Shown piece by piece: positions 4,574 through 20,039 of a DNA stretch of 64,000 nt (position 1 is its first letter; every line of letters begins with the position of its first letter). The notes beneath the pieces were generated by a model. It did no database searches. It saw nothing but the letters and a program-made list of their open reading frames with translations, and was not told the origin of the DNA. This stretch comes from Anaerolineales bacterium. Lineage in GTDB: Bacteria > Chloroflexota > Anaerolineae > Anaerolineales > RBG-16-64-43. Position numbers and translations under genes: made by a program. The stretch covers positions 1-64,000 of the forward strand of contig JAFGCU010000096.1 of NCBI GenBank assembly GCA_016932475.1. Direction: 5' to 3'.

Positions 4574-6175
4574 TTATGCCGCCTTGAGCATGCGCCGGAT
4601 GTTAAGCGCCAATTGCGCCGCCAGCCGCGTATCCGGGTTGTCCAGATCCAGCCGTGAAACCGCCGCCAGCCGCTCCATCCGGTACGTCAGCGTGTTACGG
4701 TGGATAAACAACGCCTCCGCAGTTTGCGACAGATTGCCGTGATGGGCGAAGAATTCCTCGAGCGTGGCGAGAAATTCATCCGCGTTCTCATGATTGAGGA
4801 TCGGGCCGAGGGTCTCCTGGACGAACGCTTTCAGGTCGGGATGATCTTCGAACTGCAGAAGCAGCCGGTATACGGAAAGGTCCATATAGTACAGCGGCTT
4901 CCGTTCTCCCAAACGGCGCGCCATATCCAGCGCCTGCCCGGCCTGCCGGAAGGAGAGCTGCCAAGTCCCGAGATCCACCGCCGGGGTTCCGATGCCGCAG
5001 CGCACGACGGCTTCGGGATATTCCTTGGCGGCCAGATCGATCACTGCTTGTGCCAGGGAGGTTGCGGCGGATGGCCGGCCCGCCTCACGCGGACCCTCGC
5101 AAAAAGCGATCACCTCGCCGCTCAACGACGATACGATCACCGGCGCTCCGGACCGGGCGATCTCGCCGTTGACGAGCGTCTCCAGACGGCGGAGAGTCGG
5201 CGAAGCGCCTTCCCACGCCAGCCGCACCGCCGTATGCTGCTGTTCCAGATCCAATCCCATGTTTTGCGCCCAGAGATGGGCGTCGCGCGCGGATAGATTC
5301 TGATGCAGCAGCGCGGATAGCAGATCGCCATGGAGGCGTTTTTCCGTCTCACGCACCGCTTTGGCGCGCGCCATTTCGATCGCGCACACCAGCGCACCCT
5401 GTTCGATGACCAGCCGGTCGGTTTGATCCAACTCCCCCAGCATCCCGACCGCCGTCAGGTAGCCGCGCGCCACGTCCCCGACGACGATCGGCGCGATGAT
5501 CCGTTCCAGCCCGCCGGGCATTGGTTCCGACGAGACGGCCGGAGCCTCGCCCGCCTGGCGGCGGTCACGCAGCGTCTCGGGCAGGGTGGACAGTTCCGAT
5601 AACTGCGTGACCAGATCGTTCCAAACCGAGCGCAGGTCCGTGCTCGGGCTGGAAGCCAGCGGGGTGAGGCGCTTATCCTGAACGAGAATACCGTGCTGGG
5701 TCATCTCCCGCATCGCCCCCGCCAAGCCGGACAATCCATCTCCGCGGGCGGCAATCTGGGTCAGGCGGGTTTGAATATTGGCGCCGCGCTCGAGGAGCAG
5801 GGATTTTTGCGCCATCAGCGCTCGCAGCAGGCGTTGATGGATTTCGCGGGTTTGATCTTCGGTATCCTGATCCGCGGACGGATCGGCAAAGAACCGGATA
5901 AGCGGTTTTCGGGCGGGGTTGTCACAGTCAATTTCGCCGCCGCCGATCACCCCGACTGCGGTTGCGGCTCCGTGCAACGCGGTTTCCAGTTTTGTGTTAT
6001 CCAATTCACTGCCGGCCAGAAGCAGCAGATCGCCGCTTTTGGACGATGCGGCGCTGCACGAAATCCAGGCGATGAGCGTCGATGGCTCGGTCTCGGCGCT
6101 GGAGATCCATTCGTATGTTTCCGGAGGGATCAGGTCAAGCAATGTGAGAAGCGGTATGGGTGAATTGAAAGGCAT
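4574..6175 (-). CDS. PucR/CdaR-type helix-turn-helix transcriptional regulator
   Basis: C-terminal FFAHHGNLSQTAEALFIHRNTLTYRMERLAAVSRLDLDNPDTRLAAQLAL is the PucR C-terminal HTH signature. Confidence 0.9.
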   Translation of the reverse strand: MPFNSPIPLLTLLDLIPPETYEWISSAETEPSTLIAWISCSAASSKSGDLLLLAGSELDNTKLETALHGAATAVGVIGGGEIDCDNPARKPLIRFFADPSADQDTEDQTREIHQRLLRALMAQKSLLLERGANIQTRLTQIAARGDGLSGLAGAMREMTQHGILVQDKRLTPLASSPSTDLRSVWNDLVTQLSELSTLPETLRDRRQAGEAPAVSSEPMPGGLERIIAPIVVGDVARGYLTAVGMLGELDQTDRLVIEQGALVCAIEMARAKAVRETEKRLHGDLLSALLHQNLSARDAHLWAQNMGLDLEQQHTAVRLAWEGASPTLRRLETLVNGEIARSGAPVIVSSLSGEVIAFCEGPREAGRPSAATSLAQAVIDLAAKEYPEAVVRCGIGTPAVDLGTWQLSFRQAGQALDMARRLGERKPLYYMDLSVYRLLLQFEDHPDLKAFVQETLGPILNHENADEFLATLEEFFAHHGNLSQTAEALFIHRNTLTYRMERLAAVSRLDLDNPDTRLAAQLALNIRRMLKAA

Positions 6176-6191
6176 GTTTTTACCAAAATAT

Positions 6192-6248
6192 GGACAAATA
6201 TTGTCCTAATAGGATCGTGATTTCGATCGACTTGTGCATATTGTACAA
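6192..6248. promoter_or_regulatory. Palindromic operator-like sites between the PucR-type gene and the ilv leader
   Basis: GGACAAATATTGTCC (6192-6206) is a perfect palindrome; TTGTACAA at 6241-6248 is another. Confidence 0.45.
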
Positions 6249-6280: not shown

Positions 6281-6309
6281 TAGACAGCTTTTTTATATTG
6301 AGTTAGAAT
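6281..6309 (+). promoter_or_regulatory. Candidate sigma70-like promoter of the ilv/leu operon
   Basis: TAGACA (6281-6286), 17-bp spacer, TAGAAT (6304-6309). Confidence 0.6.
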
Positions 6310-6333
6310 TATCGCTGGAAAGATAATTATTTC

Positions 6334-6432
6334 ATGGCTATTATTCTCCTGGTTGTCGTTATTGCGAACCTGGTTCTCGTCCTTGACGGGAACCATAATT
6401 ACGCATGGGCAGCCCTTGGAGAGGCATCGTAA
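6334..6432 (+). CDS. ilv operon leader peptide (attenuator peptide), 32 aa
   Basis: ATG..TAA encodes [32 protein letters not shown]; 13 of residues 3-17 are I/L/V; sits directly before a terminator and ilvD. Confidence 0.85.
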
Positions 6433-6497
6433 CAAAACAGGAAGCAAAAAGAGAAGAACGAAGCGAACCCGGGCTGCCAGAAAAGGCAGCCCTTTTT
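6372..6497 (+). promoter_or_regulatory. Transcription attenuator (pause hairpin, antiterminator, terminator)
   Basis: Hairpin GGTTCTCGTC-CTT-GACGGGAACC 6372-6394; GGCAGCCC 6408-6415 can pair with GGGCTGCC 6471-6478, which alternatively pairs with GGCAGCCC 6485-6492 followed by T5. Confidence 0.82.
6471..6497 (+). terminator. Intrinsic terminator within the ilv attenuator
   Basis: GGGCTGCC agaaaa GGCAGCCC TTTTT, 8-bp perfect GC-rich stem plus U-tract, upstream of the ilvD RBS. Confidence 0.85.
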
Positions 6498-6526
6498 GGT
6501 GGTTCCACAGAAAGGAAGGAGAAAAA

Positions 6527-8197
6527 ATGCGATCCGATCTCATCAAGAAGGGTTTTGAACGGGCGCCGCATCGATCTTTGCTGCGCGCCATGGGCGTGTC
6601 GGAGGAGGATTTCGGGAAGCCTTTTATCGCGGTGGCCAATTCCTACACCGACATCGTTCCCGGACACGTCCATTTGCAGTCGTTCGGGCGGCGTGTAAAG
6701 GCGGCCATTCGCGCCGCAGGGGGAGTGCCCTTCGAGTTCAACACGATCGCCGTGGGCGACGGTATCGCCATGGGCCATGCCGGGATGAAGTACAGTCTCG
6801 CCTCGCGCGAATTGATCGCCGATTGCGTGGAGACGATGATCGAGGCGCATGCCTTCGACGGGATGGTGTGCATACCCAACTGCGACAAGATCATTCCCGG
6901 GATGGTAATGGGCGCGCTGCGGGTGAATATTCCGACGATTTTCGTAACCGGCGGCCCGATGCGCGCCGGCAAGACGCCCGCCGGGGAAACCCTGGACCTG
7001 ATTTCGGTGTTCGAGGGTGTCGGTGCGTACAAGGCAGGCAAGATCAACGAAAAGCGGCTAAAGGTTCTCGAGCGCTTCGCCTGCCCATCGTGCGGCTCCT
7101 GCTCCGGCCTGTTCACCGCCAATTCGATGAACATCCTGCTGGAAGTACTCGGCCTGGCGCTCCCCTACAACGGAACCGCCGTGGCAAAAACCGCCGAGCG
7201 CAACGCCCTCGCCGATCGGGCCGGGTCTCTGATTCTGACGCTGGTTAAAAAGAATATCCTCCCGCGCGATCTGGTCACCATTGAAGCGGTGGACGACGCC
7301 TTCGCGCTGGATATGGCGATGGGCGGCAGCACCAACACCGTCCTGCATACGCTCGCCTTCTGCGACGAGGCGGGATTCGAGTATCCGCTGGCGCGCATCA
7401 ACCAATTGGCGGAGAAGATCCCGCACCTGACCAAGATCAGCCCCTCCGGTCCCTGGCACATCGAGGACCTGCACAAGGCGGGCGGCATCCCGGCGATGCT
7501 GAACGAAGTGGCGCGCAAGGAGGATTCGCTCCTGCACCTGGACCGGCCGACCGTGACGGGCAAAACGCTGCGCGAGAATATCCGCGGCGCCGCCGTCAAA
7601 AACCATGATGTGATCCGCCCGGTGGAGAATCCGCATTCGCAAACCGGCGGACTGTCGATCCTGTTCGGCAACCTGGCGCCGGACGGAGCCGTGATCAAGG
7701 CGGGCGGAGTGTCCGCGGCCATGCGCAAGCACAGCGGCCCGGCCCGCATTTATGAAAGCCAGGAGGAGGCGTTAACCGGCATTCTCGCCGGGGAGGTTCA
7801 GCCCGGCGAGGTGGTGGTTATCCGCTACGAAGGGCCGCGCGGCGGACCCGGGATGCAGGAGATGCTCTCGCCGACCTCGGCCATCATGGGCATGGGCCTG
7901 GGCGAAAGCGTCGCGCTCATCACCGACGGACGATTCTCCGGCGGAACCCGCGGCGCATGCATCGGGCATGTGTCCCCGGAGGCGGCCGCCCGCGGACCGA
8001 TTGCAGCACTCAGGCCCGGCGATGTGATCGAGATCGACCTGGAAAAACGGTCGATGACTGTACGCCTGCCGGACGAGGAAATCCGCTCGCGGATCGCCGC
8101 GTTACCGCCGTTTGAATCGCGCATTAAGAGCCGCTGGCTGAGGCGATACGCCAGGTTCGTCACCAGCGCCAACAAGGGCGCAGTACTCGAAAGTTAA
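6527..8197 (+). CDS. ilvD: Dihydroxy-acid dehydratase
   Basis: [76 protein letters not shown] at 6527 has an RBS (AAGGAAGGAG); the supplied ORF start 6353 would overlap the attenuator. Confidence 0.97.
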
Positions 8198-8268: not shown

Positions 8269-9966
8269 ATGAAAAAGACAGGTGCGGAAGTACTCTGGGA
8301 ATCCCTCATCCAGGAGGGGGTGGATGTGATGTTCGGAATCCCGGGTGGGGCGGTTATCCCCGCTTTTGATGCCATGCTCAACTATCCGAAACTGCGGTTT
8401 ATCCTGACCCGCCACGAGCAAGGCGCGGCGATGATGGCCGACGGGTATGCGCGCGCGTCCGGGAAAGTCGGCGTGGCGATCGCCACCTCCGGCCCGGGCG
8501 CGACCAACCTGGTAACGGGAATCCAGGTGGCCTATATGGATTCTTCGCCAGTGGTGTTCATCACCGGCCAGGTGGCGAGCAACCTGCTCGGCACCGACGC
8601 CTTCCAGGAGATCGACATGACCGGCATCAGCCTGCCGATCACCAAACATAATTTCATGATTACCTCCCCGGATGAGGTCGCGCGCACGGTCGCCGAAGCG
8701 TTCTACATCGCCCGCAGCGGAAGGCCGGGACCGGTGCTGATCGACTTCTGCAAGGATGCTCAAGTGGCGAAGACCGAGAACGTCGATCTGCCGCAAATCA
8801 GCCTGCTGGGGTATAACCCGCCGTTGCATGCGCCGCAGCCGAAACTGGAACGGGCAGCGGAGCTTATCCGCGCCGCTAAAAAACCGGTGATCTTTGCCGG
8901 GCACGGCGTGGAGCTGTCCGGCGCGACTTTGGAAGTGCAGAAATTCGCGGAACGGAACAACATCCCGGTGGCCATGACGCTCCTCAGTCTGGGTTCCATC
9001 CCCTCCTCCCATCCGCTCTCACTGGGGATGATGGGCATGCACGGCGAGGCGTACTGCAACCTGGCCATCCAGAATTCCGACCTGATCATCGCGCTGGGGA
9101 TGCGTTTCGACGACCGGGTCACCGGCAACCTCAAGACCTACGCCCCCGGCGCAAGCAAGATCCATGTCGATATCGACCCGACCGAGATCAATAAAATCGT
9201 GATGGCGGACGTTTCGCTTGTCGGCGACATCAAAACCGTCCTGGCGGACATTGATCCGATGGTGCCCAATGCGCGCCACGACGATTGGCTGGGCCAGATA
9301 GCGGAATGGCGGAAGGAAACCGACAATCGCGACATTGTCGCCCAGCCGAACAACGGCAAGCTGCACGTGCCGCAGATCATCAGCGAAATATGGAAGGCCA
9401 CCAAGGGAGAAGCGCTGGTCGCCACCGACGTGGGCCAGCACCAGATGTGGGCGGCGCAATACTATCAGCCGGAGAGGCCCCGCAGCTTCATCACCTCCGG
9501 CGGAGCGGGCAGCATGGGCTTCGGTCTGCCGGCCGCGATCGGCGCCAAAGTCGCCATGCCGGACCGCGAGGTGTGGGCGATCGTCGGCGACGGCGGATTT
9601 CAAATGACACAGATGGACCTGATCACCGCCGTGCATCAGAAGGTCGAGATCAAGATCGCCTTGATGAACAACCACTTCCTGGGAATGGTGCGCCAGTGGC
9701 AGGAGTTCTTCTTTGAAAAGCGCTATTCGTCGGTGCAGCTGCGGAATCCGGATTTCGGCAAGATCGCGGAAGCGCATGGAGCGGGCTACCGGCGGATAGA
9801 CAAGGCGGGAGAAATCCAGGCCGCCATAGAATTCGCGCGCAAGACGCCTGGTCCGGTCCTCCTGGATTTCCAGGTGGAGCAGGAGGAGGCCGTCTACCCG
9901 ATGGTTCCGACCGGAGCGGATCTGCATCAGATGATCCGCCGTCCGACCCAAGCAAAAAAGGCATAG
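8269..9966 (+). CDS. ilvB: Acetolactate synthase large subunit
   Basis: TPP enzyme motifs: GIPGGAVIPAFDAM, RHEQGAAMMADGYARASG, GDGGFQMTQMDLITAV, NNHFLGMVRQWQEFFFEKRYS. Confidence 0.97.
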   Translation: MKKTGAEVLWESLIQEGVDVMFGIPGGAVIPAFDAMLNYPKLRFILTRHEQGAAMMADGYARASGKVGVAIATSGPGATNLVTGIQVAYMDSSPVVFITGQVASNLLGTDAFQEIDMTGISLPITKHNFMITSPDEVARTVAEAFYIARSGRPGPVLIDFCKDAQVAKTENVDLPQISLLGYNPPLHAPQPKLERAAELIRAAKKPVIFAGHGVELSGATLEVQKFAERNNIPVAMTLLSLGSIPSSHPLSLGMMGMHGEAYCNLAIQNSDLIIALGMRFDDRVTGNLKTYAPGASKIHVDIDPTEINKIVMADVSLVGDIKTVLADIDPMVPNARHDDWLGQIAEWRKETDNRDIVAQPNNGKLHVPQIISEIWKATKGEALVATDVGQHQMWAAQYYQPERPRSFITSGGAGSMGFGLPAAIGAKVAMPDREVWAIVGDGGFQMTQMDLITAVHQKVEIKIALMNNHFLGMVRQWQEFFFEKRYSSVQLRNPDFGKIAEAHGAGYRRIDKAGEIQAAIEFARKTPGPVLLDFQVEQEEAVYPMVPTGADLHQMIRRPTQAKKA

Positions 9967-9976
9967 GGAGGCACCG

Positions 9977-10498
9977 ATGCAACACACACTGATCGCTCTG
10001 GTGGAAAACCGCCCCGGCGTGTTAAACCGGGTGGCGTCTCTGTTCCGGCGTCGCAACTACAACATCGAAAGCCTGACCGTCGGGCGAACGGAAAATCCGG
10101 CCATCTCCCGCATGACGATCGTGATCGAGGGTGAACCGATCGAGACGGCTCGGATCGAGGCCAACCTGGTCAAGCTGGTCAATATCATCGATGTCCAGGA
10201 CGTCACCGGCCAGCCGGCCATCGCCCGCGATTTGGCGCTGATCAAGGTCAAAGCCAAGCCCAATCAGCGCGCGGAAATCACGGCTCTGGCGGAAATATTC
10301 CGCGCGCGGGTCGTCGACGTGGCGCCGGAGAGCCTGATCATCGAGATCACCGGGACCGAAGACAAGATCGAAAGCCTGAACGAACTGCTGCGCCCGTTCG
10401 GGATCGTCGAGATGGTGCGCGCCGGCCAGGTGGCCATGCTGCGCGGAGGCGCGTCCGGAATACGGCACACGCCCGGTTTGGAAGCCAAGGTCTTATAG
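9977..10498 (+). CDS. ilvN: Acetolactate synthase small subunit (ACT domain)
   Basis: MQHTLIALVENRPGVLNRVASLFRRRNYNIESLTVG; starts 10 nt after ilvB. Confidence 0.96.
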   Translation: MQHTLIALVENRPGVLNRVASLFRRRNYNIESLTVGRTENPAISRMTIVIEGEPIETARIEANLVKLVNIIDVQDVTGQPAIARDLALIKVKAKPNQRAEITALAEIFRARVVDVAPESLIIEITGTEDKIESLNELLRPFGIVEMVRAGQVAMLRGGASGIRHTPGLEAKVL

Positions 10499-10567: not shown

Positions 10568-11626
10568 ATGGCAAAAATCAATTTCGGCGGCGTCGTCGAA
10601 CAAGTGGTGATGCGCGACGAGTTCCCGCTCAGCAAGGCCAAGCAAGTGCTGCGGAACGAGACCGTCGCGGTCCTGGGGTACGGCGTGCAGGGGCCGGCCC
10701 AGGCGATGAACATGAAGGACAACGGGATCAATGTCATCATCGGCCAGGCCAAGGAAGACAAGTTCTATTGGGATAAGGCGGTCAAGGACGGCTGGGTCCC
10801 CGGTAAAACCCTCTTCCCGATCGAGGAAGCCGTCCAGCGCGGCACGGTCATCCAATACTTGGTCTCCGACGCCGCGCAGAAAATCCTCTGGCCGAAGGTC
10901 AAGGCGAACCTCAAGAAGGGCGATGCCCTCTATTTCTCGCACGGCTTTTCGATCGTCTACAAGGACCAGACCGGCGTCGTGCCGCCGGATTACGTCGATG
11001 TGATTCTGGTTGCGCCGAAGGGGTCGGGGGCAAGCGTGCGCACCAACTTCCTGGCCGGATCGGGGATCAACAGCTCGTTCGCGGTCTTCCAGGACGCGAC
11101 CGGGCGGGCGGAGGAACGGACCATCGCGCTGGGGATCGCGATCGGCTCGGGCTACCTGTTCCCGACCACCTTCGAGAAGGAAGTCCACTCCGACCTGACC
11201 GGCGAACGCGGGGTGCTGATGGGCGCGCTGGCGGGGATTATGGAGGCGCAATACAACCTGTTGCGCAAGCACGGGCATTCGCCCTCGGAAGCCTTCAACG
11301 AAACGGTCGAGGAACTGACCCAAAGCCTGATCCGTCTGGTCGACAAGAACGGCATGGACTGGATGTACGCGAACTGCTCGACCACAGCCCAGCGCGGAGC
11401 GCTCGACTGGCGCCACCAGTTCCGCAAGGCGGTCGAACCGGTCTTTGACTGGCTGTACGAAAGCGTGGTCTCGGGCGAACAGACCCGGATCGTAATCGAA
11501 GCCAACAGCGCCAAGGATTACCGCCAGAAGCTGGAGAAGGAACTTAAGGAGATGCGCGAATCCGAGATGTGGCGGGCGGGCGCGGCGGTGCGATCCCTGC
11601 GGCCAGATAACTGGAAGAAAAAGTAG
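10568..11626 (+). CDS. ilvC: Ketol-acid reductoisomerase
   Basis: ETVAVLGYGVQGPAQAMNMKDNG; VILVAPKGSGASVRTNFLAGSG; SDLTGERGVLMGALAGIMEAQ. Confidence 0.95.
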   Translation: MAKINFGGVVEQVVMRDEFPLSKAKQVLRNETVAVLGYGVQGPAQAMNMKDNGINVIIGQAKEDKFYWDKAVKDGWVPGKTLFPIEEAVQRGTVIQYLVSDAAQKILWPKVKANLKKGDALYFSHGFSIVYKDQTGVVPPDYVDVILVAPKGSGASVRTNFLAGSGINSSFAVFQDATGRAEERTIALGIAIGSGYLFPTTFEKEVHSDLTGERGVLMGALAGIMEAQYNLLRKHGHSPSEAFNETVEELTQSLIRLVDKNGMDWMYANCSTTAQRGALDWRHQFRKAVEPVFDWLYESVVSGEQTRIVIEANSAKDYRQKLEKELKEMRESEMWRAGAAVRSLRPDNWKKK

Positions 11627-11760: not shown

Positions 11761-11814
11761 TGAGAATATCGCGGGTTTGATCCCTGAGCGGTTTCCCGGT
11801 TGAAGGAGAACACA

Positions 11815-13476
11815 ATGGATAACTATGTGCGGATTTTTGATACGACCCTGCGCGACGGCGAGCAATCGCCGGGCGCGAGCTTAACCTCCGGGGAAAAGGT
11901 GGAAATCGCCCGGGCGCTGGCCCGCATGGGGATCGACATCATCGAGGCGGGCTTCCCGGCGGCTTCGCCGGACGACCTGGAAGCGGTCCGCCGGATCGCA
12001 ATCGAAGTCGGCACCGGCCCGCAGGCGCGATCCGAGGATGCCGACACCGCGCAGAGCGTGACGCAGCGCCAACCGCCGATCATCTGCGGCCTGGCGCGCA
12101 CCACAAAATCCGACATCGATGCGGCCTGGGAGGCGGTGCGCCACGCGGCGCGGCCGCGGATTCACACGTTCATCGCCACATCGCCGATCCACATGCAGTA
12201 CAAACTGAAGATGTCGCCCGGGGAAGTCGTCCAGCGCGTCCGCGAGATGGTCGCCTATGCCCGCACATTATGCGCGGATGTGGAATTCTCGCCCGAGGAT
12301 GCCGGCCGGAGCGAGCCGGAGTTCCTGTATACAGTGCTTGCGCTGGCGATCGAATGCGGTGCCACCACCCTGAACATCCCCGATACGGTCGGGTATACCA
12401 CCCCGGAAGAATGGGGCCGGCTGATCGAGGGAATCATCCGGAACACCAAAGGGATCGAGAAAGCGGTCGTGTCGATGCACTGCCACAACGACCTGGGCAT
12501 GGCCACCGCAAACACGCTGGCCGGGTTAAGGGCCGGAGCGCGCCAAGTGGAAGGGACGATCAACGGAATCGGCGAACGGGCCGGAAACGCGTCGATCGAG
12601 GAAGTCGTTATGGCGCTGCACACCCGGCGCAACCTGTTCCACCTGACGACCGGGATCGACACCACCCAGATCTCCCGCGTCAGCCACATGGTTTCCACCT
12701 ATACCGGCATTCCGGTCCAGCCCAACAAGGCCATCGTCGGCGCGAATGCGTTCGCGCACGAGGCGGGGATCCATCAGGACGGGATGCTCAAGCATCACAC
12801 CACGTACGAGATCATGCAGCCGGAGATGATCGGCCTGACGCAATCCAGCCTGGTGCTCGGCAAACACTCCGGACGGCACGCGCTGCGCGTACGGCTGGGC
12901 GAATTGGGGCACGAGCTCACAACCGAGGAATTGGATCGGGCGTTTGAGCGCTTCAAGGAACTGGCCGACAAGAAAAAGAGCATCGCCGACGCCGACCTGG
13001 AGGCGCTGGTGGCGGACCAGATCTATCAACCGCGTGAGATATACGCCTTGGACGGGCTGCAGGTGGCGTGCGGCACGATGGGAATGCCCACCGCGACGGT
13101 CCGGCTGCGCTGCCCCGACGGCTCGCTGCAGGTCCAGGCCTCGACCGGGACCGGGCCGGTGGATGCGGCCTACAAGGCGATCGACGGGATTATCAACGCC
13201 CCGAACTCGCTTGAAGAATTTTCCATCCGCGCGATCACCGAGGGGATCGACGCGATCGGCGAAGTGACGGTACGGCTGGAATCCAAGGACGAAGCCTTGG
13301 CGCCGCGCGAAACGGCGCAGAACGGTCGAAAGCGAACGCGCTCCTTCGGCGGGCACGGGGCGGACACCGACATCATCGTTGCCAGCGCCAAGGCCTACCT
13401 GAGCGCGATCAACAAGCTGTTGGTGGCTTCCGGCCGCGCGCCGGCGGCCGCGCCGGTAAGCACGGCCAAACCTTGA
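11815..13476 (+). CDS. leuA: 2-isopropylmalate synthase
   Basis: [67 protein letters not shown] before ATG 11815. Confidence 0.94.
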
Positions 13477-14174
13477 TGAACATGCAGCGCGTGGAGGACC
13501 ACTTCAACCAGGATGCGTCGGATTACGACAGCCACATCGTCAAATTTGTGCCATATTACCGCGAGCAGAATGAGATGATGATGGAGCTGCTCCCCTTCGA
13601 GGGAACGGCCCGCCCGCGTGGGTTGGATCTCGGCGCGGGCACCGGCGTGCTGGCGGAGGGTATCCTGCGCCGCTACCCGCTGGCCGAGGTGACGGTCTTC
13701 GACCTGTCGGACAACATGCTTGCCGCCGCTCGGGAGCGTCTGAAAAAATTCGAAAACCGGACAACTTTCCTGAAGGGTGATTTTTCAAAGGATGATTTCG
13801 GGATCGGCTACGACCTGATCCTCTCCGGGCTTTCGATTCACCATCTGACAAATCCGAACAAGCAGAAGTTGTTCCGGCGGATCTACCTGGCCCTCAACCC
13901 GGGCGGCGTGTTCCTCAACCGCGACATCATCAAGGGGGCGACGGAAAGGCTGGACGGGATCTACATCCGCCTGTGGCGTGCGTACGTACGGTCGAATGGC
14001 CAGGACGACGCGGGTTTGATGGAGCGGTATTACGCGGAAGACGTCCCGGCTTGCGTGGAAGACCAGTTGGAATGGATGCGCCAGGCCGGATTCGTGGACG
14101 TGAGCTGCCATTGGCAGCGGACCAATTACGCGATCTACGGCGGTCATAAATACACTACGGATAACGAATCATGA
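13476..14174 (+). CDS. Class I SAM-dependent methyltransferase
   Basis: [15 protein letters not shown] (motif I), [24 protein letters not shown]-like [18 protein letters not shown]; overlaps leuA and leuC. Confidence 0.9.
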
Positions 14175-15589
14175 GCGAACCCACAACCCTGTTCGAAAAA
14201 ATCTGGCGGACTCATCTGGTACGGGAGGAATCCGGCCACCCGTCCGTGCTTTACATAGACTTGCAGCTGGTCCACGAGGTGACGTCACCGCAGGCTTTTT
14301 CGGATCTGCGCGCGCGCGGGTGGAAGGTGCACCGGCCGGACCGGACGATCGCGACGATGGATCATTCCATCCCGACCACAAGCCTTACCCTGGCGGGCGC
14401 CGATGATGCCGCCGTCAAGCAGCTGCGCCAACTCGAATCCAATTGCCGCGAGTTCGGCATCCGCTGCATGAAGATGGACGATCCGGGGCGGGGCATCGTC
14501 CACATCATCGGGCCGGAGATGGGAGCGACCCAGCCCGGCATGACGATTGTATGCGGAGACAGCCACACGGCGACCCATGGAGCGTTCGGGGCGCTGGCTT
14601 TCGGGATCGGAACGAGCGAGGTGGAGCAGGTCCTCGCGACCCAATGCCTGCTGCAGAACCGTCCGGAACGGACTCTTGTGAATTTCCGGGGAAAGCTCGC
14701 GCCGGGCGTCGGCGCCAAGGATATGATCCTTGGATTGATTGCGCAGATCGGGGTGGGGGGCGGGACCGGACAGGTTTTCGAATACGCCGGTCCGGCCGTA
14801 ACCGCGCTCGATATGGAAGGCCGCATGACGCTGTGCAACATGTCGATCGAAGGCGGCGCCCGCGCCGGATTGGTTGCTCCGGACGACACCACGTTTTCGT
14901 ATCTGGCCGGAAGGGAACTGGCGCCGCGGGGCGCCGCCTGGGATGCGGCGATCGCGCGATGGCGGGCGTTGGCCTCGGATCCGGGGGCGACGTTCGACAG
15001 AACGCTCGACGTCGACGCCTCGGCGCTCCAGCCGATGATCACCTTCGGCACGAATCCCGCGATGGGAATTCCGGTCACCGGAAGGATTCCGGACCCCGCC
15101 GCCGAGGCGGATCCGCTTAAGCGTTCGGCACTCGAAAAGGCGCTTGGGTATATGCAATTCTCACCCGGTGAACCGGTGATCGGCAGGAAGGTGGACGTGG
15201 TGTTCATCGGCTCGTGCACCAACGGCCGGATTTCGGACCTGCGGGCGGCGGCGGGGATCTTGCGCGGCCGTAAGGTAGCCGCGGGCGTGCGTGCGCTCGT
15301 GGTTCCGGGATCCGAGAAAGTGCGCCGGGATGCGGAAGCGGAAGGTCTCGATAGAATTTTCCGCGATGCCGGAGCCGAATGGCGGTATTCCGGATGCAGC
15401 ATGTGCATTGCGATGAACGGCGATCAGCTGGCACCCGGCCAGTACGCGGTCTCGACCAGCAACCGAAATTTCGAAGGCCGCCAGGGAAAAGGCGGACGGA
15501 CCATGCTCGCCAGCCCCGTCACGGCGGCGGCGGCGGCCCTCTCGGGCAAAGTTGCCGATCCGCGCCCGCTGCTTGAGGAAGGTGCTTAG
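14171..15589 (+). CDS. leuC: 3-isopropylmalate/(R)-2-methylmalate dehydratase large subunit
   Basis: [88 protein letters not shown]. Confidence 0.97.
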
Positions 15590-16209
15590 TGGAACCGATA
15601 CGGAAGATCACCTCAACGATCATCCCGCTTCTGGTCAACGATGTGGATACCGACCAGATCATCCCTGCCCGCTACCTCAAGGTGACGGACAAGGCCGGCC
15701 TGGCCGAGGGATTGTTCTCCAACTGGCGTTACCTTCCGGACGGGAGACCCAACCCCGAATTTGCGATGAACAAACCGGAATACCGCGGGGCGAGCATCCT
15801 CCTGGCGGGGGATAATTTCGGCTGCGGATCCTCGCGCGAGCACGCCCCCTGGGCGCTGCAGTCGGGCGGCATCCGCGCCGTTATCAGCACCTCGTTCGCG
15901 GATATCTTCCGCAGCAACGCGCTCAAGAACGGAATCCTGCCGGTGGTCGTGAATGAATCGATTCATAGAAGCCTGGTCGACCTGGTCGAGGAAGCACCGG
16001 CGGCGCAGGTGACGATCGATCTGGAGAATCAGAAAGTCCTTTTGCCGGGCGGGATGGAAGCGTCGTTTACGGTGGATACGTTTTCGAAAACCTGCCTGTT
16101 AAAAGGCAAGGATGTCCTGGAATATCTGGCGGAATATTTGCCTCAGATCCGGGCATACGAAGTGCGCCATGACATGGAGTTCGCGGCGGCCGGAAAGGCG
16201 GGGGCATGA
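15589..16209 (+). CDS. leuD: 3-isopropylmalate/(R)-2-methylmalate dehydratase small subunit
   Basis: NDVDTDQIIPARYLK; GDNFGCGSSREHAPWAL; ISTSFADIFRSNALKNGILPV; GTG start overlaps the leuC stop. Confidence 0.96.
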   Translation: MEPIRKITSTIIPLLVNDVDTDQIIPARYLKVTDKAGLAEGLFSNWRYLPDGRPNPEFAMNKPEYRGASILLAGDNFGCGSSREHAPWALQSGGIRAVISTSFADIFRSNALKNGILPVVVNESIHRSLVDLVEEAPAAQVTIDLENQKVLLPGGMEASFTVDTFSKTCLLKGKDVLEYLAEYLPQIRAYEVRHDMEFAAAGKAGA

Positions 16210-17756
16210 TGGTTGAAGTCTACGATACCACTCTGCGCGACGGCTCCCAGCGGGAGGGGATTTCCCTCACCTGCGACGACAAAATCAAGATCGCCCGCAA
16301 GCTCGACGAGCTTGGCGTGGCGTATATTGAGGGAGGCTGGCCAGGGTCCAACGCCAAGGACCTCGAGTTTTTCCAAAAAGCCAAAGCCATCCACTGGCGC
16401 ACCGCAAAAATCGCCGCGTTCGGTTCGACCTGCCGGGCGGGCAGCCGCCCGGAAAACGACGAGAATATTCAGGCTTTGCTCAAGGCGGGGACGCCCGTAT
16501 GCACCGTGGTCGGAAAATCATCGGTCCTGCATGTGTCGGAAGTTCTGCGGACCTCGAAAGAAAACAATCTGCGGATCATCGAAGAGAGCATCGCCTATTT
16601 GATATCCAGGGGCCGCGAGGTGCTTTTCGACGCCGAGCACTTTTTTGACGGCTTCAAGGCGGATTCCGATTACGCGCTCGAGACGCTGCGGGCTGCCCGG
16701 CGCGGCGGCGCGCAGATCCTTGTGCTGTGCGAGACCAACGGCGGCGTGATGCCGTGGGAGGTGGAAGCCGTTTTCCGCGCCGCGCGCGGCGCGGTCGACG
16801 CCCGGCTGGGGATCCACGCCCACAACGACAGCGAATGCGGCGTCGCCAATTCGTTGATTGCGGTCCGCGAGGGCGCGGTCCAGGTCCAGGGGACGGTGAA
16901 CGGGTATGGAGAGCGCTGCGGCAACGCCAATCTTTGCTCGATCATTCCGAACATCGAACTCAAGATGAACAAGCGTTGCCTGCCCAGAGGGAGGCTCAAG
17001 CATCTGTTTGAAGCGGCGCATTATGTGGCGGAAATCGCCAACCTTTCCCCCGACGAGCACATGCCGTTTGTCGGAAAATCCGCATTTGCGCACAAGGGTG
17101 GAATTCACGTCGCGGCGATGCGTCGCAGCGCGGTTTCCTACCAGCACATCGATCCGGCGCTGGTGGGCAATGAAATGCGCGTGGTGATCAGCGAACTCTC
17201 GGGCAAGGGAAACCTGCTCCACAAGGTCGAACAATTCAGCCTGCAGGCGGATGAAAAAGCGGTCGGGAAAGTGCTGGCCGAGATCAAGGAATTGGAGGCG
17301 CGGGGGTTTTCCTTCGAGACCGCCGAAGCGTCGGTGGCGCTGATGCTCAAACGCCACCATCCGCGCTACAAGCCGCCGTTCGAACTGATCGACTTTTTCT
17401 GCGTGGTGGAGCACCGCCGGGGAAGGGGGCTGCTTTCGGAGGCGAACGTCAAGATCCGGGTCGGCGACGAGATCATGCATACCGCCGCCGAGGGAGACGG
17501 CCCGGTGAATGCTCTGGACATCGCGCTGCGCAAAGCGCTGCAGCCGCGCTACCCGCAGATCAAGCTCTTCGAGCTGGTCGATTACAAGGTGCGCATCCTG
17601 GATTCCAACAGCGGGACGGGAGCCATCGTGCGGGTGTTGATCGACACCCAGTGCGACGGCCGGCGGTGGAGCACGGTCGGCGCCAGCGAGAACATCATCG
17701 AAGCTTCCTGGCGCGCGCTGACGGATGCGATCGAGTACGGCTTGTTGATGAAATAA
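16206..17756 (+). CDS. cimA: (R)-citramalate synthase
   Basis: VEVYDTTLRDGSQREGISLTCDDKIKIARKLDELGVAYIEGGWPGSNAKD; HAHNDSECGVANSLIAVREGAVQVQGTVNGYGERCGNANL. Confidence 0.93.
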   Translation: MMVEVYDTTLRDGSQREGISLTCDDKIKIARKLDELGVAYIEGGWPGSNAKDLEFFQKAKAIHWRTAKIAAFGSTCRAGSRPENDENIQALLKAGTPVCTVVGKSSVLHVSEVLRTSKENNLRIIEESIAYLISRGREVLFDAEHFFDGFKADSDYALETLRAARRGGAQILVLCETNGGVMPWEVEAVFRAARGAVDARLGIHAHNDSECGVANSLIAVREGAVQVQGTVNGYGERCGNANLCSIIPNIELKMNKRCLPRGRLKHLFEAAHYVAEIANLSPDEHMPFVGKSAFAHKGGIHVAAMRRSAVSYQHIDPALVGNEMRVVISELSGKGNLLHKVEQFSLQADEKAVGKVLAEIKELEARGFSFETAEASVALMLKRHHPRYKPPFELIDFFCVVEHRRGRGLLSEANVKIRVGDEIMHTAAEGDGPVNALDIALRKALQPRYPQIKLFELVDYKVRILDSNSGTGAIVRVLIDTQCDGRRWSTVGASENIIEASWRALTDAIEYGLLMK

Positions 17757-17893: not shown

Positions 17894-18958
17894 ATGGCAG
17901 GCAAAACGTATCGCATTGGCGTGATCGGCGGAGACGGCACGGGACCGGAGGTCATCCGCGAGGGCCGCAAGGTTCTCGAGGCGGCCTCGAAAAAATTCGG
18001 TTTCGGGATCGACTGGGCCGATTACGACCTGGGCGGAGAACGCTACAAGCGCACCGGGGAGATCCTGCCCGACAGCGTCACCGCCGAACTTCGCAAACTG
18101 GACGCGATCTACCTGGGCGCGATCGGGCATCCGGAAGTCAAACCCGGGATATTGGAGAAGGGATTGCTCCTGCGCCTGCGTTTCGAACTGGACCAGTACA
18201 TCAATCTGCGGCCCGTGAAACTCTACCCGAACGTGGATACCCCGCTCAAGGATAAAACCCCGGACGACATCGACTTTCTGGTCATCCGCGAAAACACGGA
18301 AGGATTGTATACCGGGGCGGGCGGCGTGCTGCGCAAGGGGACTCCCCACGAAGTGGCGGTTCAGGAATCGATCAACACACGGATGGGCGTTGAGCGATGC
18401 ATCCGTTACGCCTTCGAAGCCTGCCGGAAGCGCGCCAAGCGCAACAAGCTGACGCTGTGCGGAAAAACCAACGTCCTGACCTTCGCCTTCGACCTTTGGG
18501 AACGGACCTTCTACGAAGTCGCCAAGGAATATCCCGGGATCCAGACCGATTACGCGCATGTGGACGCCACGACGATGTGGATGGTTAAAAACCCGGATTG
18601 GTTCGACGTGATCGTGACCGACAACATGTTCGGCGACATCATCACCGACCTGGGCGCAATGATCCAGGGCGGGATGGGCATCGCCGCCGGCGGCAACATC
18701 AATCCGGAGGGCGTCTCGATGTTCGAACCGATCGGCGGTTCGGCGCCCAAGTACACCGGCAAGAACGTGATCAACCCGATGGCGGCGATCTGCGCCGGCG
18801 GCATGCTGCTGGATACGATCGGGGAAAGCGCCGCCGCCAACGCGGTCGAACAGGCGGTGATCAAGGCGCTTTCCGGCGGAAAGATCAAGAGCCTGGCCGC
18901 AGGCAAGATGGGGCTTTCCACAACCGAGACCGGCGACCTGATCGCCGGATTGGTGTAG
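17894..18958 (+). CDS. Isopropylmalate/isocitrate dehydrogenase-family beta-decarboxylating dehydrogenase (paralogue of leuB)
   Basis: YRIGVIGGDGTGPEV; FLVIRENTEGLYTGAGG; NVLTFAFDLWERTF; VTDNMFGDIITDLGAMIQGGMGIAAGGNINPEGVSMFEPIGGSAPKYTGKN. Confidence 0.9.
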   Translation: MAGKTYRIGVIGGDGTGPEVIREGRKVLEAASKKFGFGIDWADYDLGGERYKRTGEILPDSVTAELRKLDAIYLGAIGHPEVKPGILEKGLLLRLRFELDQYINLRPVKLYPNVDTPLKDKTPDDIDFLVIRENTEGLYTGAGGVLRKGTPHEVAVQESINTRMGVERCIRYAFEACRKRAKRNKLTLCGKTNVLTFAFDLWERTFYEVAKEYPGIQTDYAHVDATTMWMVKNPDWFDVIVTDNMFGDIITDLGAMIQGGMGIAAGGNINPEGVSMFEPIGGSAPKYTGKNVINPMAAICAGGMLLDTIGESAAANAVEQAVIKALSGGKIKSLAAGKMGLSTTETGDLIAGLV

Positions 18959-18962
18959 GCGG

Positions 18963-20039
18963 ATGAGCCACGCGGACATCATTCTCCTGCCCGGAGATGG
19001 AATCGGCCCCGAGGTGCTCGCGCAAAGCGTGCGGGTTCTTGAGAAGGCCGCGGCCCGCGGCGGGCATACGCTCGGTTTTCAGGAACGGTTGATGGGCGGT
19101 TGTTCCATCGACCGGCAAGGGGTTGCTCTATCGGACGAGGTCCTTGCGGATTGCCGGGCGGCGGACGCGGTTCTGATGGGTGCGGTGGGCGGACCGAAAT
19201 GGGACGATCCGCGCGCAAAGGCCCGTCCGGAGCAGGGGATGCTCGCGCTGCGCAAGGGGTTGGAAGTGTTCGCCAACCTGCGGCCGGTTAAAGTCCGCGC
19301 GGCGCTTCAGGATGTTTCCCCGATCAAGCCGGACCGGATCGCGGGCGTGGATTTTTTGGTCGTGCGGGAGCTGACCGGCGGTTTGTACTTCGGGCAACCC
19401 AAGGAACGCGGAAAAACCGCAGACGGCCATGAACGCGCCGTGGATACGCTGGAATACTCCGACTACGAAATCCGGCGGGTGGTGGAATTCGCTTTCCGTT
19501 TGGCGGCCTGCCGGCATCGCAAAGTCACTTCGGTGGATAAGGCGAATGTCCTCGAATCATCACGCCTGTGGCGCCAGGTGACGGTCGAGGTGGGCGCGCA
19601 GCATCCCGAGATCGCGCTGGATCATCTCCTGGTCGATACCGCCTCGATGCGCATCATACAATCGCCGCGGGATTTCGACGTAATCGTCACCGACAATATG
19701 TTTGGCGACATCCTCACCGACGAGGCCTCCGTATTGGCGGGGTCGATGGGAATGCTGCCGTCGGCTTCCCTGGGTGACGGCGGGCCGGGTCTGTATGAGC
19801 CGATTCACGGATCGGCGCCGGATATCACCGGCAAGGGGATCGCCAACCCGGTAGCGGCGATCCTGAGCGGCGCGATGCTGTTCCGTTATTCGCTTGGTTG
19901 GGAGCGGGAAGCGGAGGCGATCGAACGCGCGGTGGACTATGCCCTGGATGCCGGCAACCGGACCGCGGATCTTCAACCGGCAGGCAAACCGCTTACCACC
20001 AAAGAGATGACGGATTGCGTACTGGGAGGGCTGGAATAG
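18963..20039 (+). CDS. leuB: 3-isopropylmalate dehydrogenase
   Basis: DIILLPGDGIGPEV; FLVVRELTGGLYFGQPKERG; VDKANVLESSRLWRQV; VTDNMFGDILTDEASVLAGSMGMLPSASLG; YEPIHGSAPDITGKGIANPVAAILSGAMLFRYSLG. Confidence 0.96.
   Translation: MSHADIILLPGDGIGPEVLAQSVRVLEKAAARGGHTLGFQERLMGGCSIDRQGVALSDEVLADCRAADAVLMGAVGGPKWDDPRAKARPEQGMLALRKGLEVFANLRPVKVRAALQDVSPIKPDRIAGVDFLVVRELTGGLYFGQPKERGKTADGHERAVDTLEYSDYEIRRVVEFAFRLAACRHRKVTSVDKANVLESSRLWRQVTVEVGAQHPEIALDHLLVDTASMRIIQSPRDFDVIVTDNMFGDILTDEASVLAGSMGMLPSASLGDGGPGLYEPIHGSAPDITGKGIANPVAAILSGAMLFRYSLGWEREAEAIERAVDYALDAGNRTADLQPAGKPLTTKEMTDCVLGGLE

Follow-up and report, generated by a model that had tools for sequence, protein, structure and literature searches.

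The leader upstream of ilvD in the window (the whole stretch of 64,000 nucleotides that was analysed) is very probably a ribosome-dependent transcription attenuator, which would sense charged Ile, Leu and Val tRNAs and control the branched-chain amino acid (BCAA) operon. This reading is built on the open reading frame (ORF), the pairing arms, their mutual exclusion, their conservation and covariation and the gene context, as found in the sequence and by comparison with relatives; from these we infer that charged tRNAs are sensed, that the polymerase pauses and that transcripts end here in the living cell.

Leader Peptide and Alternative Hairpins

The elements of the leader region (6281-6527) are listed below with the evidence for each in brackets; pairings between arms are written as 1:2, 2:3 and 3:4.

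6281..6309, + strand: promoter-like TAGACA-17-TAGAAT (sequence; TAGACA-17-TARAAT is found likewise in the related loci L082 and L083)
6334..6432, + strand: leader peptide ORF, 32 aa (sequence, relatives)
6340..6384, + strand: regulatory codons 3-17, 13 of 15 for Ile, Leu or Val (sequence)
6351..6357, + strand: arm 1 (GGUUGUC), in Leu-Val-Val codons, pairs with 6408-6414; anti-antiterminator (minimum-energy structure, fold probability, swap test)
6371..6395, + strand: inner hairpin, 11 bp, UGGUUCUCGUC-CUU-GACGGGAACCA, within the regulatory codons (fold, recoding test, compensatory changes)
6408..6415, + strand: arm 2 (GGCAGCCC), within 6406-6417 (codons Trp-Ala-Ala-Leu), pairs with arm 1 or with arm 3 (sequence, folds, comparison)
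6471..6478, + strand: arm 3 (GGGCUGCC), pairs with arm 2 (antiterminator) or arm 4 (terminator) (sequence, folds, comparison)
6485..6497, + strand: arm 4 (GGCAGCCC) and U5 tract, intrinsic terminator (sequence, folds, comparison)
6513..6521, + strand: ribosome binding site AGGAAGGAG of ilvD (sequence)

A preliminary description of this DNA had placed the promoter at 6281-6309 and a 32-aa ORF with 13 Ile, Leu or Val (I/L/V) among residues 3-17 at 6334-6432, and the sequence agrees with both. The leader start is preceded by a weak Shine-Dalgarno-like GGAAAG. Taking a background I/L/V fraction of 0.223, the binomial probability of 13 such residues in 15 is 2.3e-7, and among the 98,260 six-frame 15-mers of the window there was only one other place, at about 51,465, where 13 were reached. 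The fold of the 212-nt leader had a z of -3.4, with none of 200 shuffles as good. The same description had ilvD as tracked (6353) overlapping the ORF, and this was not borne out: TTG 6353 results from mechanical extension of the reading frame, and the true ilvD start is ATG 6527, preceded by AGGAAGGAG, with which the leader ORF does not overlap. Nearly the whole of the protein read from ATG 6527 is matched by dihydroxy-acid dehydratase models. The correction matters since automatic callers would put the ilvD start inside the leader.

The hairpin that had been described at 6372-6394, with one G.U pair, is present and has 11 bp when 6371/6395 is counted; it is a probable RNA polymerase pause hairpin. 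The competing segments were also located where they had been reported, with GGCAGCCC at 6408-6415, GGGCTGCC at 6471-6478 and GGCAGCCC again at 6485-6492. The terminator hairpin thus covers 6471-6492 and is followed by TTTTT, a short U tract, and the antiterminator formed by 6408-6415 with 6471-6478 excludes it. As regards the enterobacterial attenuator geometry that had been proposed, the ORF and the 2:3 and 3:4 pairings were upheld, but arm 1 had been overlooked. In the minimum-energy fold of the growing transcript, GGUUGUC at 6351-6357 pairs with GGCAGCC at 6408-6414 and encloses the inner hairpin, which gives a 1:2 helix of 7 bp around a 50-nt interior. Arm 1 is the anti-antiterminator of the classic model, yielding three exclusive states; with the full set of 1:2, 2:3 and 3:4, an untranslated leader should therefore mostly terminate.

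Modelled Switch

The proposed mechanism can be stated as follows. RNA polymerase would start at about 6316, the predicted transcription start, and the inner hairpin would probably hold it until a ribosome has come up behind it on the leader ORF. A shortage of Ile-, Leu- or Val-tRNA would stall the ribosome at codons 3-17, where it would prevent arm 1 from pairing; arm 2 would then pair with arm 3, and arm 4 would be left without a partner, so that transcription would go on into ilvD and through to leuB. When the supply is good, the ribosome would reach the stop codon and cover arm 2, the 3:4 hairpin would form and the polymerase would stop at the U5 tract. In an untranslated leader, 1:2 would pair and the terminator would mostly form.

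The effect of the ribosome was modelled by setting a 30-nt footprint at each codon and folding the transcript as far as the last base of the terminator loop, just before arm 4, all folds being equilibrium folds and not cotranscriptional ones. The 2:3 helix had a probability of 0.87-1.00 for every stall at an I/L/V codon among codons 3-17, and of 0.00 for all ribosome positions between codon 23 and the stop, both included; without ribosome the probabilities were 0.75 for 1:2 and 0.25 for 2:3. The I/L/V run therefore sits in the zone where stalling gives antitermination, with Leu-28 alone beyond it. In this model, the scan agrees with the direction predicted in the preliminary description, in which a stall at the I/L/V codons would free 6408-6415 and a ribosome at the stop codon would cover it.

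A cruder measure, the pairing of arm 3 with anything upstream, gave 0.80 for the stalled ribosome and 0.67 for the ribosome at the stop in the window, and 40 of 200 recodings switched as strongly; across leaders the medians were 0.65 and 0.44, the direction being right in 65 of 80. This measure lacks specificity, as arm 3 picks up weak partners once arm 2 is no longer accessible, and the clean switch thus depends on naming the 2:3 helix.

Conservation in Relatives

In loci of the same order, most of those with enough sequence upstream of ilvD carry there an ORF for an I/L/V-rich peptide of about 30-40 aa, with the inner hairpin within the ORF codons, arm 2 near the 3′ end of the ORF and the terminator 18-40 nt past the stop. 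It was also possible to see the arm sequences change together, as in the pairs GGGCAGCC/GGCTGCCC, GAGGCGGC/GCCGCCTC, TTGGGCGGT/ACCGCCCAA and GGGAAGGGG/CCCCTTCCC. In many relatives arm 3 reaches into the terminator loop, where AACC is explained by its pairing with GGTT before arm 2. The 2:3 helix is bulged in L090, L092 and their kin, which automatic terminator detection misses; this detection also ran some stems through the T run and chose the wrong hairpin in the window and in L003, and the arms of the window were set by hand.

A covariance model, R1, was built from 18 leaders of relatives. Of the 396 genomes in the class, 203 had a match at E<=0.01, and 150, in 39 families, at E<=1e-4. The window element scored 103.7 bits and was the sole match in a search of its own whole genome (3.65 Mb in 129 contigs), while L025, from a relative in the same order, on contig JACPYX010000001.1 of a metagenome-assembled genome (MAG) deposited as Chloroflexi bacterium, scored 127.8 bits. 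Near relatives of IlvD come from genomes deposited as Chloroflexi or Anaerolineae, and the nearest named one (76%) was deposited as Ignavibacteriae. On these relatives the genome of the window belongs in Chloroflexota, the class being probably Anaerolineae. Outside the class about 20 genomes matched, mostly weakly and near the noise of Bacteroidota, with a few exceptions at 38-50 bits (G458, G470, G676 and G721 among them). As negative control, the model was run on 148 genomes from the phylum to which a Bacteroidetes MAG belongs, and no score there exceeded 31 bits.

Among the 130 matches that were fetched, 122 precede BCAA genes: ilvB in 64, ilvD in 49, ilvE in 3, leuC in 2, cimA in 2 and a branched-chain amino acid (liv-type) ABC transporter in 2, the other 8 being of other kinds or cut off. 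Promoter-like hexamers (at least 9 of 12 positions) were found upstream of 72 of 124 leaders, in comparison with 5.3% of shuffled sequences. Thus the conserved I/L/V-rich mini-ORF, which the preliminary description had proposed to look for upstream of ilvD in related genomes, does occur there upstream of BCAA operons, and the competing stems, whose lack of conservation would have spoken against the attenuator, covary in relatives.

Tests of the Pairings

Two tests were applied to 80 leaders. In the swap test, on leaders below 70% identity, the arms of each leader were compared with permuted arms. The 2:3 pairing had -18.0 kcal/mol with its own arms and -13.4 kcal/mol with permuted ones (z=-14.8); z was -9.8 for 1:2, -12.8 for the inner hairpin and -0.4 for a control pairing. 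In the recoding test, the leaders were compared with synonymous recodings in which the peptide and the leader codon usage were held; ATT, CTT and GTT are far commoner in the leaders than in the genes of the operons. The mark of 95% of the recodings beaten was reached by 39 of 80 leaders for 2:3, 25 for 1:2 and 45 for the inner hairpin, and by 4 for the control, as chance predicts. For the window alone, the recodings as good as the natural leader were 0.1% for the inner hairpin and 4% for 2:3.

For 1:2 in the window alone, 12% of the recodings were as good, which is not significant. Together with the small size of that helix, this value favours the scheme of the preliminary description, where the ribosome acts by occlusion only: there would be no functional 1:2, the ribosome would cover arm 2, and an untranslated leader RNA would read through. 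Against it, 1:2 is part of the minimum-energy fold, is the predominant pairing when no ribosome is present and, by both tests above, was selected over the family, so that we consider occlusion alone unlikely. The attenuator with all three pairings remains our preferred reading.

The comparative alignment points the same way for the other helices. In an alignment that was not fitted to structure, compensatory changes on both sides were seen in 5 of the 9 pairs of 2:3, and the covariation of this helix was 0.373, against 0.207 when shuffled and at most 0.107 when slid. The terminator was paired in 98% of the cells of the relatives' alignment, and the inner hairpin is conserved in the relatives with compensatory changes. 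It might be argued that a hydrophobic ORF lies by chance beside an ordinary promoter-proximal terminator, considering that short I/L/V-rich ORFs do arise by chance in scans, where several unrelated ones were met; the conservation throughout the class, the covariation and the swap and recoding tests refute this, and we give it practically no weight.

Variants of the Family

Several departures from the common plan were observed. In L231 and L238 (genomes G403 and G239) the leader before cimA is nearly Ile-only (VSFSISISIISIIIASIIIVPQAI...), which fits cimA because it is a gene of the isoleucine pathway. In L143 and L174 (genomes G029 and G418) the attenuator frame is followed by an ABC transporter for branched-chain (hydrophobic) amino acids; the leader, MTTSFGYMVIIIIMWVLYYFYYGKAPVFGW..., is Ile-rich and also has Tyr, Phe and Trp codons. 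Tandem double leaders stand ahead of one operon in L086, L091, L008, L199, L203, L150, L189, L142 and L220, each leader with an I/L/V-rich ORF and, in several loci, with a terminator in both copies.

Farther away, in MAGs of Ignavibacteriae, CSSED10-310 and Bacteroidetes (L002, L010 and L017), I/L/V-rich short ORFs precede ilvD and are followed by a long-range inverted repeat that lacks a T tract, the hairpin lying close to the start codon; these leaders possibly use a different output mechanism. Such start-codon hairpins are what would be expected if the I/L/V peptide senses and the conserved hairpins serve mostly to control translation, Rho-dependent termination or the stability of the RNA, intrinsic termination playing no part. 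In the window and in the Chloroflexota family, however, there is a GC-rich terminator with a T run, and in the window about 30 nt separate its end from the ilvD start, so that the ribosome binding site of this gene stays uncovered. An output of that kind is therefore quite improbable here, and intrinsic termination is the output that we retain for the attenuator.

Operon and Upstream Region

The genes that follow the leader were identified by their family matches, and the site upstream of the promoter by comparison.

6232..6248, no strand assigned: conserved site TTGTGCATATTGTACAA, 32 nt upstream of the -35 hexamer (identical in L082 and L083)
6527..8197, + strand: ilvD, dihydroxy-acid dehydratase, true start ATG 6527 (NCBIfam TIGR00110)
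8269..9966, + strand: ilvB (TIGR00118)
9977..10498, + strand: ilvN (TIGR00119)
10568..11626, + strand: ilvC (TIGR00465)
11800..13476, + strand: leuA, start codon uncertain (TIGR00973)
13473..14174, + strand: class I methyltransferase (PF13649)
14171..15589, + strand: leuC (TIGR00170)
15589..16209, + strand: leuD (TIGR00171)
16206..17756, + strand: cimA, citramalate synthase (TIGR00977)
17894..18958, + strand: leuB paralogue 1 (NF002898)
18963..20039, + strand: leuB paralogue 2 (TIGR00169)

The count of 11 genes given for this BCAA operon was right, two leuB paralogues and one methyltransferase being included. A pattern scan from ilvD to leuB gave no convincing internal promoter or terminator, and we take these genes as a putative single transcription unit with the attenuator ahead. 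The class I methyltransferase gene overlaps both its neighbours, leuA at the end of that gene and leuC at its start. The two leuB-type dehydrogenases that adjoin at the end of the operon are different, and one of them may serve the citramalate (isoleucine) branch.

The TTGTGCATATTGTACAA site is the sole copy with fewer than 3 mismatches in its own genome. It is adjoined by a divergent gene for a PucR-like regulator (4574-6175, - strand), and the genes upstream of L082 and L083 are divergent homologues of this regulator (60-69% aligned identity). From its position and conservation the site is a candidate operator, possibly of the divergent PucR-like regulator and as an extra layer outside the attenuator; on these grounds the promoter region is likely to be under a second control as well, exerted by a protein.

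Comparison with Known Systems

BCAA genes in Firmicutes are often under T-boxes. When the window leader and 16 related loci were searched against Rfam (T-box, amino-acid leaders and all other families), no match reached the gathering score, and a T-box or known riboswitch was ruled out as a candidate. The conserved parts are, besides, the I/L/V codon run, which becomes Ile-rich before cimA, and the arms embedded in codons. That a T-box or other aptamer riboswitch lies here with the short ORF incidental to it is thus very improbable, more so than an output without intrinsic termination, and a leader read by the ribosome is preferred.

Attenuation by leader peptides belongs to textbook knowledge and has been described for the most part in Proteobacteria and Actinobacteria. 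In its proposed working the window element resembles the ilv, leu and trp attenuators of E. coli and the ilvBNC attenuator of Corynebacterium. The leaders of ilvXGMEDA (ilvL) and ilvBN (ivbL) of E. coli resemble the window leader in having an I/L/V-rich peptide and an intrinsic terminator before a BCAA operon, and they form mutually exclusive hairpins; the ilvL peptide has 32 aa, equal to that of the window. Unlike in the E. coli ilv leaders, arm 2 of the window forms part of the last codons of the ORF and the inner hairpin falls within the regulatory ones, while the operon combines genes of both the ilv and the leu pathway with cimA. The leader of leuABCD (leuL) is likewise a leader peptide attenuator, of the leucine operon, but its run is Leu-specific, whereas that of the window is mixed. 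The E. coli ilv and leu leaders were rejected as homologues, since R1 gave 13.2 bits to ilvL and 11 bits to leuL in comparison with 103.7 for the window, the ilvL score being lower than that of chance matches in Bacteroidota genomes (31 bits); there was no match at ivbL among the matches listed.

The ilvBNC attenuator of Corynebacterium glutamicum (leader peptide IlvL, MTIIRLVVVTARRLP) is translation-dependent, as tested by mutation, and also has a terminator, an antiterminator and an anti-antiterminator (PMC11857589). It differs from the window in its near-leaderless peptide of 15 aa, its actinobacterial host, ilvB as first gene and the overlap of terminator and antiterminator. The candidate ilvB leaders of Actinobacteria (PMC1262725) and the ilvB1 attenuator of Mycobacterium tuberculosis (PMC13236596) are alike in having a short ORF with an I/L/V run and a terminator before ilvB, but belong to another phylum. 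In Streptomyces coelicolor the replacement of regulatory codons was without effect, and the exact mode was left open (PMC1262725).

Naville and Gautheret in 2010 knew leader-peptide systems only in Proteobacteria and Actinobacteria, and added one in Firmicutes (PMC2965389). In the literature covered we found no attenuator or leader peptide for Chloroflexi or Chloroflexota; the survey of Lopatovskaya et al. 2010 lies outside this coverage and may hold an earlier prediction. The kind of mechanism is already known, and it is the lineage-wide family that appears to be new to the resources searched. Taking these comparisons together, we lean towards a so far undescribed family of BCAA attenuators that spans this class of Chloroflexota, has no counterpart in Rfam and no detectable homology to proteobacterial leaders, and whose RNA frame has been re-targeted (leaders of cimA, ilvE, leuC and the transporter, and recurrent tandems). 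If this is true, amino acids are sensed by ribosome-polymerase coupling in another deep phylum, in a class mostly known from uncultured genomes. R1 provides a ready covariance model for annotation, and the Ile-only, transporter and tandem versions are natural experiments on how codon runs set the amino acid that is sensed.
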